A stretch of DNA of 64,000 nucleotides, from the NCBI GenBank assembly GCA_023657425.1, contig JAGTJW010000002.1, forward strand, positions 300,431-364,430. Reading direction: 5' to 3'. This document shows, piece by piece, positions 1 to 6,241 of the stretch (positions are counted from its first letter, which is position 1; each line of letters starts with the position of its first letter). Made by a program: the position numbers and the translations under genes. The notes beneath the pieces are model-generated. The model worked only from the letters and a program-made list of their open reading frames with translations. It did not search any database and was not told where the DNA came from. The DNA is from Ideonella sp. WA131b (lineage in GTDB: Bacteria; Pseudomonadota; Gammaproteobacteria; Burkholderiales; Burkholderiaceae_C).

Positions 1-478
1 AGGTCACGCCGGTGGCGCCGGTGTGTACCTTCCACTGGCTGTTCAGGGCCTGCGTCATCTGGATCATGCGCCGCGCCACGACCTTTGTGTACTTCGAGTC
101 GTCGGCGAAGTTGGCGCCGATGTGGCAGTGGTTGCAGCCCTGCTCAGGCGACACCCACTGCGTGATGGCGTTCATGTGGCGGTTGAACTCGGCCACGGAC
201 AGATCGCCCAGCACCTTGACGTTCTGGTAGACCTGCCCCGCCTTCGGTCCATCGGCGCTGGCCGGCGGCGCATCCTCGGGGGGAGTGGCCCGAGCCGCGG
301 CTTCCTGGGCGGCCAGGCGCGGGTTCACGGTGTGCTGCATCGCCGTGCCGCGGAAGCCCTGCTGGGCGGTTTCCACCGGCGGGCGTTCACAGCCCGCGAG
401 CAGCAGGGCGGCGGCGAGGGCGGCCAACGTACCCAGCCTGGCGGGCCAGGAGGCGGGGGAGTGGGTGCGCGCGGTCAT
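1..478 (-). CDS. pufC: Photosynthetic reaction-centre tetrahaem cytochrome c subunit (PufC), C-terminus beyond window
   Basis: Only the first 159 codons are present. Residues 14-30 form a lipoprotein signal ending in the lipobox LLAGC (Cys30), so the mature protein should be lipid-anchored on the periplasmic side. A haem motif, CNHCH, is at residues 115-119; it is the first of the four expected in this family. The protein re-reduces the photo-oxidised special pair of the reaction centre. The ATG overlaps the pufM stop by one base (TGATG), implying translational coupling at the end of the puf operon. Family membership is clear from position and motif; the other three haem sites lie outside the window. 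Confidence 0.95.
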   Translation of the reverse strand, partial: MTARTHSPASWPARLGTLAALAAALLLAGCERPPVETAQQGFRGTAMQHTVNPRLAAQEAAARATPPEDAPPASADGPKAGQVYQNVKVLGDLSVAEFNRHMNAITQWVSPEQGCNHCHIGANFADDSKYTKVVARRMIQMTQALNSQWKVHTGATGVT

Positions 479-1464
479 CACTTGGCTCCCGTCGTCAGCG
501 TTGAGGGGTCGATGGCCGTGCCCAGGACTGCCGGGTAGCTCGGCGCCACGCCGTGCTTGACCGCCCACAGGTACCAGTTGTCGACCACCGTGCCCGACAG
601 CAGGATGCCGATGCCGCCGGTGATGGGCGTGAGCACCGCGAACCACCAGGCCCAGCGGTGGATGGACTCCATCGTGGCGTTCCAGCCCATCGTCCAGCGC
701 CAGAACAGGGCCGCGCGTTCGCTGGCCGTGCCACGATCGACGATCTGGTCGATCTCGCGGTCACCGCCATAGCGCGTGACGGCCAGGATGGTGGCGCCGT
801 GCATCGCGAACAGCAGCGTGCTGCCGTAAAGGAAGACGATGCTCAGCGCGTGGAAGGGGTTGTAGAACAGGTTGCCGTAGCGCAGCGAAAACGCCGCGGT
901 CCAGTCCAGGTGCGGAAAGATCCCGTAGGGAACCCCCTCGCTCCAGCTGCCCATCAGCAGCGGCCTGAACAGGCCGAGCACCAGGAACAGCCAGATGGCC
1001 GCCGCGAACGCCCAGGCGATGTGGGTGCCCATGCCGAGCTGGCGGGCGCGGTTGTAGGTGCGCATCCACCAGGTCAGCACGCTCACGAGCAACAGCGCTG
1101 AAGCCAGAAGCCACCATCCGCCTTCGTTCATCGGCGGGATGGACAGACCGTACTTGGGGTGCGGCGGCTCAAGCGCCAGCCACGGCAGCTGGCGGATGAA
1201 TTCGATGGGGTTCCAGTTCACCGAGGCGAGCTGGTTCAAGCCCATGATGTTGATCGCGAGCGTGCCCGTGATGAGCGAGATCAGGCCCAGCGACCCCAGG
1301 TACAGCGGCCCGATCTGGGCATTGCCCAGGCGGCCGAACAGGTGCACGAGGAAGGGCTGGCCAACGCGCGTGTCGTTCTTGGGCGGCAACTCGACGCCGT
1401 CGTGCGCGGGCCCGACGGGTTGCACGCGGGTGAAGAGATTCTGGTAGGGAATCTGGCTCAGCAT
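478..1464 (-). CDS. pufM: Photosynthetic reaction-centre M subunit
   Basis: A 328-residue integral membrane protein with five hydrophobic spans. It binds the special-pair bacteriochlorophylls and QA with PufL. The C-terminal half carries the family signature [20 protein letters not shown] followed by [18 protein letters not shown], which includes the region of the iron and QA ligands. An upstream in-frame ATG at 1566 would lie inside pufL. The start at 1464 is preceded by AGGAG and gives the normal N-terminus ([11 protein letters not shown]). It follows pufL after 10 bases and overlaps pufC by one base. Confidence 0.97.
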
Positions 1465-1474
1465 GATCGGCTCC

Positions 1475-2299
1475 TCACTTCCAGATCGGCAGCTGCAGCC
1501 ACCAGTTCCACCACTCGGGCCATCCGCGGGTCCAGAACGGGCCGCTGATGACGATGCAAACCGCACTGAAGAATCCTGCCGCCATGGCCAGGAACAGGCC
1601 CAGGCGGTGGATGCCCAGCGTGCCCACCGAGTAGCCGATGAGATCTCGGAAGAAGGTGTCCTCGTAGTCCGGCGTCTTCACCCGCTCGCCCTTCGGCGGG
1701 TTGGTGGCGCTCAGCACCAGGGCACCGTGCATGGCCAGGGCGAGCGTCGTCGTGAAAAAGAACGTGATCGCCAGCATGTGCGCCGGGTTGTAGTGGAAGT
1801 GCAGGTACTGGTAGCCGATGTTCGACACCCAGTCGAGGTGGCTCCAGATTCCATACGGGAAGCCGTGCCCCCAGGCACCCATCAGCACGGGGCGGATCAC
1901 CACCAGCGTCACGTAGGCCAGGATGGCCATGCCGAAGGCTGCCGGCACGTGATAGCCCATGCCCAGTTTTCGGCAGATCTCCACCTCGCGCAGCGCCCAG
2001 CTCACGAAGGCGCCGATCGCGCACACGGTGACGATCTGCCAGATGCCGCCTTCCTTGAGCGGCGCCAGGGCCAGGCCGTACTTCAGGTCGGGCGGAGCGA
2101 TGTTGATGGTCCACGGGTTGAAGGTGCCCTGCACCGCCGCGCCGTAGAAGATCATTGCCGTTCCCAGGAACGTGAAGAAGATGGTGGTGACGCCGAAGAA
2201 TCCGACGTAGAAGGGACCGACCCAGAAGTCGAACAGGTCACCGCCAACGAGGGTGCCGCCCCGCACCCGGTACTTGCGCTCGAAACTCAGCATGGCCAT
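1475..2299 (-). CDS. pufL: Photosynthetic reaction-centre L subunit
   Basis: A 274-residue five-span membrane protein that forms the photochemical core with PufM and holds QB. The N-terminus [15 protein letters not shown] and the segment [19 protein letters not shown] are typical of PufL, and the length is normal. It lies 205 bases after pufA. That spacer carries a hairpin directly after the pufA stop and a short tandem repeat, as expected where puf mRNA is processed to give more LH1 than reaction-centre message. Five bases farther in, the in-frame Met3 is an alternative start. Confidence 0.97.
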
Positions 2300-2504: not shown

Positions 2505-2678
2505 TCACTTCTTCGCGGCCGTCTTGTCGACCACGGCCCGCGCGTTCGGACCGTCGAACCAGTTGTAGGTCGCGGTGCTGAGCAGGATGAGGTGGATCAT
2601 CGCCGCCAGGCCAAAGAGGAAGATCCCCTGCACGACCATCGCGCGCAGCGGGTCGTAGAGCTTCCAGATACGCCACAT
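2505..2678 (-). CDS. pufA: LH1 antenna alpha polypeptide
   Basis: A 57-residue single-span antenna protein. It begins MWRIWKLYDPLRAM and has the span VVQGIFLFGLAAMIHLILLS. The His of MIHLILL is the bacteriochlorophyll ligand, and the following TATYNWF motif is typical of LH1 alpha. The start at 2678 has AGGAGA upstream; a longer in-frame reading from 2789 would run back over the previous gene. The C-terminal tail (GPNARAVVDKTAAKK) is hydrophilic. It comes 11 bases after an unusual extra gene that separates it from pufB. Confidence 0.95.
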   Translation of the reverse strand: MWRIWKLYDPLRAMVVQGIFLFGLAAMIHLILLSTATYNWFDGPNARAVVDKTAAKK

Positions 2679-2689
2679 AGAGAGTTCTC

Positions 2690-2914
2690 CTATTGAAGGT
2701 GGGACATGAAGGTGTAGACCGCGGACTTGACGCCACCGGTCATCGACTTCACGCCTTCCGCGCCGGGCAACCAGGAACGCCACTGGCAACCGAACAACTG
2801 CCCGATCACCGCGATCAGCCCGAAGAGCACGAAGCCCAACAGAAAGATCGTCGAAGTCGAGACCGAGTCGGCCTGTCCCTCGTGCCGATGAGAAAGGTGT
2901 CGTGCGTCAGCCAT
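2690..2914 (-). CDS. Unrecognised 74-residue single-span membrane protein encoded between pufB and pufA
   Basis: Starts at 2914 with AGGAGA eight bases upstream and ends 11 bases before pufA, so it looks translated as part of the puf operon. Residues 1-20 are hydrophilic with a His cluster (HLSHRH). Residues 21-42 form one membrane span (TIFLLGFVLFGLIAVIGQLF), followed by Cys43 and a Trp/Arg edge. Residues 53-74 could be an amphipathic tail (VKSMTGGVKSAVYTFMSHLQ). There is no His inside the span, so it is not an ordinary bacteriochlorophyll-binding antenna. Size and topology recall PufX or other LH1 accessory peptides, but I see no sequence match. pufB and pufA are normally adjacent. Function unknown; a role in RC-LH1 architecture or quinone access is only a guess from its place. 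Confidence 0.8.
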   Translation of the reverse strand: MADARHLSHRHEGQADSVSTSTIFLLGFVLFGLIAVIGQLFGCQWRSWLPGAEGVKSMTGGVKSAVYTFMSHLQ

Positions 2915-2945
2915 TGCCGTCTCCTTCAGTCGCTTCGGGGGTCGG

Positions 2946-3092
2946 TCAGAGCCAGGGTCGCCAGATCCAGACCAGCAGGTGTGCGACCACGGCAACAGCC
3001 GTGAACCCCACGAACCCCTGGACCCAGAACCGGTGGAACTCCTGGGCCTCGTCGTCAGTCAGGCCCGAGATCGAGCCCTTGCGTTCAGCCAT
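2946..3092 (-). CDS. pufB: LH1 antenna beta polypeptide
   Basis: A 48-residue single-span antenna protein: [20 protein letters not shown] then the span ending [14 protein letters not shown]. The His in VVAHLLVW is the bacteriochlorophyll ligand; the EAQEFH His and the WRPWL end are family hallmarks. AGGAGT lies upstream of the chosen ATG at 3092; an earlier in-frame ATG at 3137 adds residues not found in beta polypeptides. It is the first puf gene, 147 bases after bchZ. No pufQ is found in that gap. Confidence 0.95.
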
Positions 3093-3239
3093 TGGAATGA
3101 CTCCTTTGCTTCGGCCTCGCGGCCGCCTTTGCGCCAAGCCCGCGCAATGGGGCAGCCGTGGCCCAACGCCACGACATCGGGTGGGGAGCGTGCGAAAAGC
3201 CGGCTCCTGGATTCAGCCCGAAGACCGTCGCGTGCTGCG

Positions 3240-4736
3240 TCATGCCGGCACCCCGCGCGTCTCGGGAAGGTGATCGACGGTCACGGCAGCGGCCCCGGCA
3301 CGGCGTGCGACGGCCTCGGCGGCGTCGCGCCACTGCTTGGCCGCCGAGATGCGCACCAGAACCGGTTCCTTCTCGACGCGCTCGGCGAGCTGCGCCTGAG
3401 CCTCGTCGTCCCAGGGCAGCGGCGCTTCTTGCCCGGCGCCGCCGCGGACCGGCGTGGCCTCGATGCGGTCGAGCTCGGTGCCCAGCGGCAGGATGTGGAA
3501 CAACGCGTCGAACAGTGCGTTGCAGAACTCCTGCACCAGGTAGGTGGCGCCGGCATATCCCATGAACGGTGTGCCCGTGGCGCGGCGGATCAGTGCGCCC
3601 GGAAAACTGGCCGGAATCCAGCACGGCCTGGGCCCAGGGCCGCTGCTGGCCTCGGCCAGGTACATGCGTTCGTTGTACGAGCCGTAGAGAACGAGCGGCG
3701 TCTTGTCGTGCACGAGGCGACGCACCGTCTCGTTGTCGGTCTTGGCCCCGGCCTTGCGCGGCACTGCAAAGTGGCAAGGCAGTCCCAGCTCGTCTTCGAA
3801 GAAGTGGCGGATGCCGCGCGTGTAGGTTTCGTTCGCCACCACCGCAAAACTGGCGGTGCCAAAAAAGTCTTGCGTGACGCTGCGCCAGAGGTCCCAGATC
3901 GGCTTGATCGTGGTGTGCTTCTCGCGCTCGATGAAGGGCTCGGGATCCAGCTGCAGCAGCGCACCCAGCTCGCGCAGGAACGCGGTCGTGCTGAACAGGC
4001 CGATGGGTGCTTGCAGGTAGGGGCGTTCCAGCGCCTCGCAGAGCATGCGGCCGTATTCGCGGTACAGGCACACGTTCACGTCGGCGTTGGCGAGGTTGGC
4101 CACGTCGGCCAGATGGCTGCCGAGCGGAAACACCATGTTCACGTCGGCACCTATGCCCTCCACCAGGCGACGGATCTCGGCCACGTCGCTGGGCATGTTG
4201 AAGGTGCCGTAGCAGGGGCCGATGAGGTTGACGCGCGGCTTTTCTCCAGCAGGCCGCTCGGCGAACGGCGTGCGGGCAGGCACCTTGCGCGGGCCGTACT
4301 GCTGCCACAGCCAGTACATCGCTCGGTTGGCGCACTGCCACTGGTCCTCGTCGATGGTGCGTGGCAGGAAGCGCTGGATCGTCGTGCCCTCGGGCGTGAC
4401 GCCGCCGCCGATCATCTCGGCGATCGAGCCCGTCACCACCACCGCGGGCAAGTCTGGGTCGAGTGCGGCGTGCGCCTTCTTCATCGCGCCTTCGGTGCCT
4501 TCGCGGCCGAGCTGCTCTTCGGCCAGGCCCGTCACCACGATAGGCAGCTCGTGCGGCGGCAACGCGTCGGTGTAGTGCAGCACGCTGGTCACCGGGAGGT
4601 TCTCGCAGCCCACTGGGCCGTCGATCACCACCTGCAGGCCCTTGATGGCCGTGAACACGTAGACCGCGCCCCAGTAACCGCCAGCCCGGTCGTGGTCGAT
4701 CACGTAGTTGAGCTTCGGTGATCCGGACCGGTCCAT
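3240..4736 (-). CDS. bchZ: Chlorophyllide a reductase subunit Z
   Basis: A 498-residue NifK-like subunit of chlorophyllide a oxidoreductase (BchXYZ), which reduces ring B of chlorophyllide a on the route to bacteriochlorophyll a. The N-terminal segment [20 protein letters not shown] holds a cluster-binding Cys. [20 protein letters not shown] and [19 protein letters not shown] are typical of BchZ. The ATG overlaps the bchY stop by one base (TGATG), so Y and Z should be translated together in the stoichiometry of an alpha2beta2 complex. Only 147 bases separate it from pufB, so transcription can continue into puf. Confidence 0.96.
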
Positions 4737-6241
4737 CAGATCATCTCCTCGGCCTTGCGCTTCTTCATCAGCTTGATGACCTGACGCTGGGTCTCGGCAC
4801 GGAACTCGGGGCGAAGCACGGGCTTTTCGCTCCAGACACCAGCCTGGTCGCCCTCGCCCACCTCGCCGAAGAACTCACGCATCTGCTCGAAACGCGCCTT
4901 GTTCGCGATGGCCGCGTTCACCACCTGCGCCAGACTGCCGGCACCCGCGGGGCCCATGAGCGGACGGGCGCTGATGAGGTTGGTGAAGTACAGGCCCGGG
5001 ATCGTGGCCGCCTTGGCGGCCTGCACCACGGGTGTCGTGCCGATGGCCAGATCGGGGCGGAACTCGCGCACCGCGGCAATGTCCTGCTCCAGGCTGGCGC
5101 GGAACTGAACGTGCACGCCGCGGGCCTGCAGCCAGGCCAGATCGGGCGCGCTCCAGGGCGTCTGCGGGCAGGCCGTACCCACGTAGGGCACCTCGGCGCC
5201 GCTCTCGATGAGCAGACGGGCCACGAGCAGCTCACTGCCTTCATAGCCGCTCACGGTGATGCGGCCTCGGATGGGTGTCTTGGTCAGCACCGCCCGGATG
5301 GCAGGCAGAAAGCGGTTCTTGGCCGCGTCGATCTGCGCCTGCGGCACATTGCAGGCCGCGCCCACGGCCTGCAGCCAGGCCTCGGTGCCGTCGTGGCCCA
5401 CCGGGGCCGACGGCAACACGGTGCGACCGGCGGCCTCGAACTCGCGCACGCTGGCGGTGTAGAAGGGGTGGATGGCGGCCACGGCCGCGCAGTCGAGCGC
5501 GGCGTAGAGCTCGCGCCACTCTCGCGTAGGGACCACGGGGCCCGCGGCCAGGCCCAGGGGCTCGAGCAGCGCGCCGATCACCAAAGGGTCGGCCGGGAAC
5601 ATCTCGCCCAGCAGCGTGATCGTGGGTTTGCTGCTGACGCCCTGGCGAGGTGCCATCACCGGGCCGGCCTCGGCCTCGGCACGGGCGTAGCGCAGCATGG
5701 CGCCGGCCAGCACATCCTTGGCCTCGGCGTGAGTGGGCACGCCAAAGCCAGGCACGTCGATGCCGATGATGCGCACGCCGTCGATCGCCTTGGGCAGCAG
5801 CTGCAGCGGCACACCGCTGGCCGTGGGTACACAGAGGTTGATGATGACGATGGCGTCGAGGTTTTCGCCCTTGGCCTGCGCGTGCACGGCGTCGCGGATG
5901 TCCTCGAACAACTTGCCCGTCACCAGCGTCTCGCTGTTGAAGGGCACGTAACCGACGCTGCGGCGCGCGCCGTAGAAGTGGCTGGTGAACGTGAGGCCGT
6001 AGACGCAGCAGGCGCTGCCGGAGAGGATGGTGGCCGTGCGCCGCATGCGCAGCCCCACGCGCAGCGAGCCGAAGGCCGGGCACATGCTTTGCGGCTGCTC
6101 GTGCGGGCCCCGACCTTCTTCAGGTCCGGCCACCGGGTAGTCACGGGCGTACTGCGCCAGGACCTCGCTCTTGCCCGCGGCCTGGGCCGCGGCGAGCATG
6201 CCGTCGCGGTCGCTGCAACTCAGGGCGTCAGGCTGCGTCAT
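4736..6241 (-). CDS. bchY: Chlorophyllide a reductase subunit Y
   Basis: A 501-residue NifD-like subunit that forms the catalytic heterotetramer with BchZ. The N-terminal part has the Cys-containing stretch [19 protein letters not shown] followed by [20 protein letters not shown], consistent with binding of a 4Fe-4S cluster at the Y/Z interface. The start ATG at 6241 (MTQPDALSC) lies within the last codons of bchX, an overlap of 14 bases. Longer in-frame readings would run through bchX and are rejected. It ends in a one-base overlap with bchZ. Confidence 0.96.

Follow-up and report, generated by a model that had tools for sequence, protein, structure and literature searches.

Many phototrophic Burkholderiales carry, between the LH1 antenna genes pufB and pufA, a small gene here called X. 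Homology searches identify its product as a paralogue of LH1 beta (PufB), closest to the long, tailed form of PufB. We tentatively propose, with a probability of about 45%, that X is a pigment-free, beta-derived biogenesis factor which fills the niche of PufQ.

Gene X in the window and its distribution

The window, which is the whole 64,000-nucleotide stretch analysed here, contains on its minus strand, in this order, a bchZ-like frame, pufB, X, pufA, pufL and pufM (Table 1). X is a real gene. The predicted 74-residue frame between pufB and pufA stands, with flanks assigned by NCBIfam models, and so does its good ribosome site. The name bchZ is annotated at the same place in database records, including those of four Rhodobacterales plasmids and Thiodictyon. 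A search for a stable hairpin after pufA gave no support for one, the region folding about as shuffled sequences do (z -0.69).

Table 1 Features of the puf locus in the window
Feature	Position	Strand	Description
X (ORF74 type)	2914..2690	minus	74 aa + TAG; His-less LH1-beta paralogue with C-terminal tail, by translation and homology searches
Shine-Dalgarno GAAGGAGA of X	2920..2927	minus	ends 5 nt before ATG
TAGGAGA, X stop codon overlapping pufA ribosome site	2686..2692	minus	
pufB, short form	3092..2946	minus	48 aa, RPWL end, no tail, both His; NCBIfam pufB 2.6e-24
pufA (LH1 alpha)	2678..2505	minus	NCBIfam pufA 1.7e-17
pufL	1475..2299	minus	
pufM	478..1464	minus	start by eye from sequence
pufC-like frame downstream of pufM	1..478	minus	cut by window edge; name from position
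Gap between bchZ-like frame and pufB	3093..3239	minus	147 nt; site of PufQ or PufQ-like genes in other lineages; none found here
bchZ-like frame upstream of pufB	3240..4736	minus	named from gene order

The profile search and synteny survey of Burkholderiales suggested with the original prediction show that homologues between pufB and pufA are widespread, and the idea of an extra conserved membrane protein encoded in puf operons is borne out. In a sample of 399 genomes from the window's GTDB family, X (matched at E <= 0.01) and pufM were each found in 64 genomes and together in 61 of them. The X matches without pufM (G169, G205 and G250) are all weak, with E > 0.002. The pufM genomes without X are G115, with an intact pufB-pufA (locus L129), G209, whose contig ends at pufL, and G374, in which pufL is truncated and adjoins unrelated genes. 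Of 203 pattern matches obtained from the GTDB species collection, 178 encode a relative, and the best 80 of these 178 include Rubrivivax gelatinosus DSM 1709, R. benzoatilyticus, Roseateles puraquae, Piscinibacter, Aquincola and several Limnohabitans. The order pufB-X-pufA-pufL was observed in 109 of 110 loci read (L001 and L005-L113, some from the same genome), and the odd one, L044, starts inside the operon. We note that the X loci include duplicates, where the same genome came from two collections.

In the rest of the order, outside the family, pufM is present in 19 of 160 genomes (G399-G558). X was found in 16 of these 19, of which 14 were read as loci and two (G457 and G500) have a profile match only; the other three are G427 with a long PufB, G466 with a PufQ-like gene, and G542, whose contig ends at pufM. 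In a wider draw from the order, the X profile matched 33 of 250 genomes, some of them only via PufB or PufQ-like frames. The profile also matched 6 of 369 genomes in a class sample (two in the family) and 17 of 398 in a phylum sample (four in the family). No X was found outside the order in these two samples, which hold few likely phototrophs, and the matches there come from PufB (long forms and a single short form), PufQ-like ORFs and one odd beta-like frame. A plasmid search with X gave no match. Three Burkholderiales loci (L133, L137 and L138) keep X between a PufB (MAxxVNPSGLTDxECQEFH) and a PufA (MWRYWRIVDPRK) that both differ greatly in type from those of the other loci.

The AlphaFold2 model of X (mean pLDDT 64) contains one long helix (residues 13-47) and a low-confidence tail helix (59-73). 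As predicted, the membrane span has no His. The Cys predicted at the membrane edge is present (C43) but is not conserved, with Cys in none of 15 other alignment rows, and the tail, predicted to be possibly amphipathic, is only moderately so (moment 0.27-0.48 in 11-residue windows). An alignment of 92 X proteins shows no variation at W45, P50, G51 and V62 and almost none at residues that include R46, A52, E53 and A65-S71 (AVYTFMS); the membrane edge and the tail are the most invariant parts of X. The summed pN/pS over 22 hand-picked pairs is 0.224 for X, 0.105 for PufB and 0.168 for PufA. The value for X, together with homologues in 61 of 64 pufM genomes, argues that X is more than a chance ORF.

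Of 134 X loci, some of which share a genome, 114 have the stop codon of X overlapping a ribosome-site motif of pufA. This would fit X being mainly a translational device that couples pufB to pufA, with an unimportant peptide. The peptide is strongly conserved, above all at the edge and in the tail, and its pN/pS is low (0.22); this conservation largely refutes such a role; moreover, in the operons without X that were read, pufA follows pufB and no such frame was found. We consider a purely translational role highly improbable.

Kinship of X with LH1 beta

When X was compared with PDB sequences by phmmer, LH1 beta chains were retrieved (8z81_B, 8e-8; 7xxf_B, 8e-7; 9m8m_B, 2e-6; 6z5s, 2.5e-5), and a profile of 16 X proteins reached 5e-16 on 8z81_B by hmmsearch. 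In hhalign, X matches long PufB at 2.2e-22 over 66 columns of the long-PufB profile, with a score of 109 compared with a maximum of 34 among 60 block shuffles. X therefore does have relatives.

Long, tailed PufB (PF00556; Rhodopila 7xxf, Rhodopseudomonas palustris 6z5s, and 8z81) shares with X the membrane helix, the WR-W edge, the PG and the tail; in X the helix is kept, the edge reads WRxWLPGAE and the tail (GVKAAVYTFMSHL) is strongly conserved. Unlike long PufB, X is a separate gene beside a normal PufB, and it lacks the ligand His and the N-terminal SGLTxxEAxEFH motif, which is present in the PufB rows and absent from the X rows read. X also falls below the Pfam cut-off: no family model of Pfam or NCBIfam matched it, and the LHC model PF00556 gives weak matches to 4 of 16 X-family members (best E 0.002) and none to the window protein.

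In the phmmer alignment with a PDB beta chain, beta VAHFLAWAWRPWIPGAEG is aligned to X IGQLFGCQWRSWLPGAEG, which places a Gln of X opposite the ligand His. The PufB His at this position, taken as six residues before the WR motif, is the bacteriochlorophyll ligand. None of 108 unique X sequences has His there. The 107 sequences read by motif have Q (73), K (12), S (7), T (5), A (4), E (2), N (2), G (1) or L (1), and in the 108th (L100), which lacks the search motif, the residue is Q by eye. We infer that X is probably pigment-free.

A weak tree of 74 columns, with unsettled bootstrap, places X with three Burkholderiales long PufBs, between a PufQ-like clade and the other PufBs. A direct derivation of X from PufQ-like genes instead of PufB is less likely, because long PufB is closest to X.

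Tail and PufB length

In X operons, every PufB that could be classified is tail-less. By a motif rule, it ends directly after WRPWL in 131 of 134 X loci and is long in none; in the remaining three, two PufB proteins end in WRSWL and the end is altered in L055. At this last locus (Piscinibacter aquaticus, near 5820-5942), PufB is altered after VLVW, probably by a draft frameshift. As judged from the loci read, the tail is found on X where PufB is short.

Three other Burkholderiales loci (L132, L135 and L136) have no X, and their PufB carries both His residues and a tail such as GVKAAVNSFMPYVFMA. The profile of these PufB tails gives a probability of 98 with the X tail and of 93 with that of PufQ-like proteins. 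For the remaining long PufB tails, the match to the X tail is weaker (91) and there is none to the PufQ-like tail (2), and the direct comparison of X and PufQ-like tails gives 6.5. A fresh fusion of pufB and X as the source of long PufB was also considered; the GYTSM stretch and the ends (FMA, FMG, MMS) of long PufB would speak against it. Within one genus, G427 has a long PufB, and G514 and G552 have a short PufB and X. The pufL sequences of these genomes are far apart in the tree, so an operon replacement is possible.

In each of the Burkholderiales operons read, a single protein bears the putative helper tail: X, a PufQ-like protein or a long PufB. This one-carrier rule covers the X loci and 7 of 7 assessable Burkholderiales loci without X (L130, L131/L170 and L169 were left out), and it is limited to the Burkholderiales loci read, because alpha- and gammaproteobacterial loci combine long PufB with PufQ-like genes.

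PufQ-like genes and their mutual exclusion with X

In many other purple bacteria read, an ORF of ~65-90 residues, here called PufQ-like, lies upstream of pufB. The examples scanned (six against Pfam and five against NCBIfam) fall below every cut-off, and the ORF of Thiodictyon is annotated as a hypothetical protein. They make up an unnamed family in several proteobacterial lineages (L146, L147, L154, L155, L157, L158, L160, L161, L163, L164, L166, L179, L125-L127 and L129), distantly related to PufQ and LH1 beta.

PufQ (PF05398) and PufQ-like ORFs resemble X in their size of ~65-90 residues, single membrane helix, conserved C-terminus, place in the puf operon and distant profile similarity. 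They differ in position, as the PufQ or PufQ-like gene lies between bchZ and pufB and X lies between pufB and pufA. PF05398 matched none of the X proteins scanned. In a search of 20 genomes it gave nothing above the cut-off and only scattered weak matches, and in the window's genome it gave no match at E <= 10.

A profile built from nine PufQ-like ORFs matches annotated PufQ from four Rhodobacterales plasmids (probability 90, E 1.6e-6) and X (9e-17), reversed profiles giving 0.06-0.2, and the direct match between X and PufQ is weak (probability 56, 1e-4). Since single-helix proteins can match by hydrophobicity, we ran a shuffle control for seven comparisons, with columns permuted within the N-part, helix and C-part (60 shuffles). 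Real scores exceed all 60 shuffles in 7 of 7 comparisons, with a wide margin for X and PufQ-like (84 against a maximum of 23) and a narrow one for X and PufQ (26.4 against 21.6). The E-values are too optimistic, as shuffled ones reach 2e-6. A PufA profile, used as a control, matches none of the compared profiles (probability 4 or less).

X and PufQ-like genes were not found together in the loci read. Among the X loci, 129 have 500 nt or more of sequence before pufB (five others are too short), and none of the 129 carries a PufQ-like ORF there. The set includes near relatives and duplicates; this zero is unaffected by how the loci without X were found. Among the 27 loci without X (24 distinct PufB), 18 have a PufQ-like ORF upstream of pufB and PufB is long in 21 and short in 6, counts which are biased because these loci were partly found via the X profile matching long PufB or a PufQ-like ORF, and which include the same places more than once (L146/L150, L147/L151 and L164/L167). 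Eleven of the 18 contributed sequences to the PufQ-like profile, and seven (L129, L155, L157, L158, L160, L161 and L163) are independent of it. At L148, a PufQ-like candidate seen by eye was missed by the profile.

G115, the sole genome of the family sample with an intact pufB-pufA and no X, has a PufQ-like gene before pufB. This 90-residue ORF, which was absent from profile building, reaches 37 bits in the comparison with the PufQ-like profile, against 15 bits for the X profile. In a quick tree, the pufL of G115 groups with those of the window and two more X-bearing operons (SH-aLRT 97), suggesting either an exchange of X for a PufQ-like gene, or a PufQ-like gene retained and X lost, within an X-bearing lineage. 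Three Burkholderiales long-PufB operons carry neither X nor a detected PufQ-like ORF, which indicates that the PufQ niche is not obligatory.

Expression and covariation

Where the original prediction considered an unrecognised subunit, the gene itself already appears in the literature, under the name ORF74 in Roseateles depolymerans (PMC10037100). In the parts of that report available to us, the locus tags give the order RS05150 (pufB), RS05155 (ORF74) and RS05160 (pufA); these genes are the top three loci, share a co-transcribed 1-kb message, for which Suyama 2002 is cited for the ORF74 transcript, and pufA, pufB and ORF74 retain 0.71, 1.09 and 2.34% in a sigma-factor mutant. ORF74 and pufBA are induced together, and those parts of the account give ORF74 no function. 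ORF74 (RD2015_RS05155) presumably corresponds to X, to which it was matched by place and name; like X, it lies between pufB and pufA by locus-tag order and is co-transcribed. In the related Roseateles puraquae (L093), X was read between pufB and pufA. In the same excerpts, the unnamed ORF77 of Roseateles depolymerans (RD2015_RS05175), which comes next after pufM by the order of locus tags, decreases along with the photosynthesis genes when the sigma factor is mutated.

Among open-access PMC papers, to which our search was confined, no work on the X protein itself was found, and no title on a betaproteobacterial RC-LH1 structure was among the matches listed. A term search in the main text of the RC-LH1 review PMC10214105 found no Rubrivivax, gelatinosus, Roseateles or betaproteobacteria. 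Although the phototrophy of Rubrivivax gelatinosus and its relatives has been studied for a long time, we found no function for this gene in the middle of their antenna operon.

Covariation was assessed over 75 operons as partial r corrected for PufL and PufM. The values are 0.60 for PufA-PufB, 0.28 for X-PufB, which may be inflated by paralogy, and 0.05 for X-PufA. For the X tail alone, the covariation with PufA is 0.23 (p 0.003) and drops to -0.06 once three divergent operons are left out. Between X and PufM, given PufL, the value is 0.29, and between X and PufL, given PufM, it is 0.24.

A possible role of X in biogenesis

In the proposed mechanism, X would no longer carry pigment; produced along with pufBA, it would serve as a biogenesis factor in the membrane. 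In the PufQ niche, it would help to steer tetrapyrrole supply and/or nascent LH1 assembly, and its tail may be a contact site. If X fills this niche, the lack of PufQ-like genes before pufB in X-bearing operons would be explained. In Rhodobacter sphaeroides, according to the parts of PMC5725709 available, PufQ was retrieved with ferrochelatase and is needed for a normal bacteriochlorophyll level, and its loss lowers bacteriochlorophyll and core complex. The conserved edge and tail of X may be set beside the well-conserved C-terminus of PufQ (PMC5725709). We place this reading first on the strength of the beta homology, the loss of His, the profile chain from X over PufQ-like proteins to PufQ, the mutual exclusion, G115, the conserved edge and tail, the lack of overall covariation with PufA, and the induction of ORF74 with pufBA.

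Several observations speak against the PufQ niche. The direct match of X to PufQ is weak, PF05398 does not match, the gene place differs, and the closest relative of X is long PufB, an antenna subunit. The C-terminus of PufQ is predicted to be cytoplasmic (PMC5725709, as excerpted), and a periplasmic tail would be expected of a beta-like X. In addition, the niche is not obligatory, X covaries moderately with PufB and reaction-centre subunits and its tail with PufA in the full set, and the tail profiles of X and PufQ-like proteins hardly match.

It is worth noting that PufQ is not present in all purple bacteria, and PMC5725709, in the parts seen, asks how those without it regulate the branch point of haem and bacteriochlorophyll. 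If X fills the role of PufQ, it would answer this question, and antenna proteins could become assembly factors. A further and rather doubtful extension is that the PufQ family itself descends from antenna betas that lost their pigment, and that purple bacteria repeatedly made a beta duplicate into a pigment-free helper linking pigment supply to LH1 assembly. If so, X would be how the 'PufQ-less' purple bacteria run the branch point.

X compared with small RC-LH1 proteins

A close rival, only a little behind in our estimate and in line with the ring-opening idea of the original prediction, is that X is a pigment-free, beta-type subunit of RC-LH1, located at the end of or in the LH1 ring and leaving a quinone gap like PufX or protein W. 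The beta homology, including the WRxWLPG edge, is consistent with it, as are the related tail, which some operons have on PufB and others on X, the place of X on the pufBA segment and its induction with pufBA (PMC10037100, as excerpted). No X-type chain is present among the PDB matches, so such a complex would be one not yet seen, and betaproteobacterial RC-LH1 would have an unseen component. The covariation points both ways: that with PufB and the reaction-centre subunits is moderate, and the tail covaries with PufA in the full set, but X as a whole does not follow PufA, as would be expected of a ring subunit replacing beta, although this is not decisive. A ring subunit also leaves the exclusion with PufQ-like genes unexplained. 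Because of this exclusion and the lack of overall covariation with PufA, we prefer biogenesis over ring opening, although both observations would be compatible with a place of X in the core complex.

PufX, protein W and the gamma polypeptides are small extra membrane proteins of RC-LH1, and X would resemble them in this. X has no match in Pfam to the families of PufX, for which a Pfam model exists, protein W or gamma. The pufX gene directly follows pufM, with the reaction-centre genes (PMC9640540, in part), whereas X precedes pufA, with the LH1 genes. Protein W is described with three membrane helices (PMC7806223, in the part seen) or, in the available part of another paper, with one; X has one predicted helix, with low confidence outside it. 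PufX-like ring opening by X has no direct support.

X could also be a gamma-like packing subunit, present in many copies outside LH1 between the betas, stabilising the ring and sealing some quinone pores. Multi-copy gamma polypeptides are known in Blastochloris and Rhodopila, according to partial accounts, and X is encoded and co-transcribed with LH1 (PMC10037100, as excerpted). In these accounts, however, the gammas are helices of 22-36 residues between betas, with described lengths of 22 and 36, and the Rhodopila one runs antiparallel to beta, whereas X has 74 residues, is beta-related and carries a tail; we regard a gamma-like role as improbable.

As a separate observation, chain 4 of PDB 8k5o, a single-copy 105-residue chain named 'antenna complex alpha/beta subunit domain', matches the X profile at 5e-4 and may be a further beta-like chain added to a photosystem.
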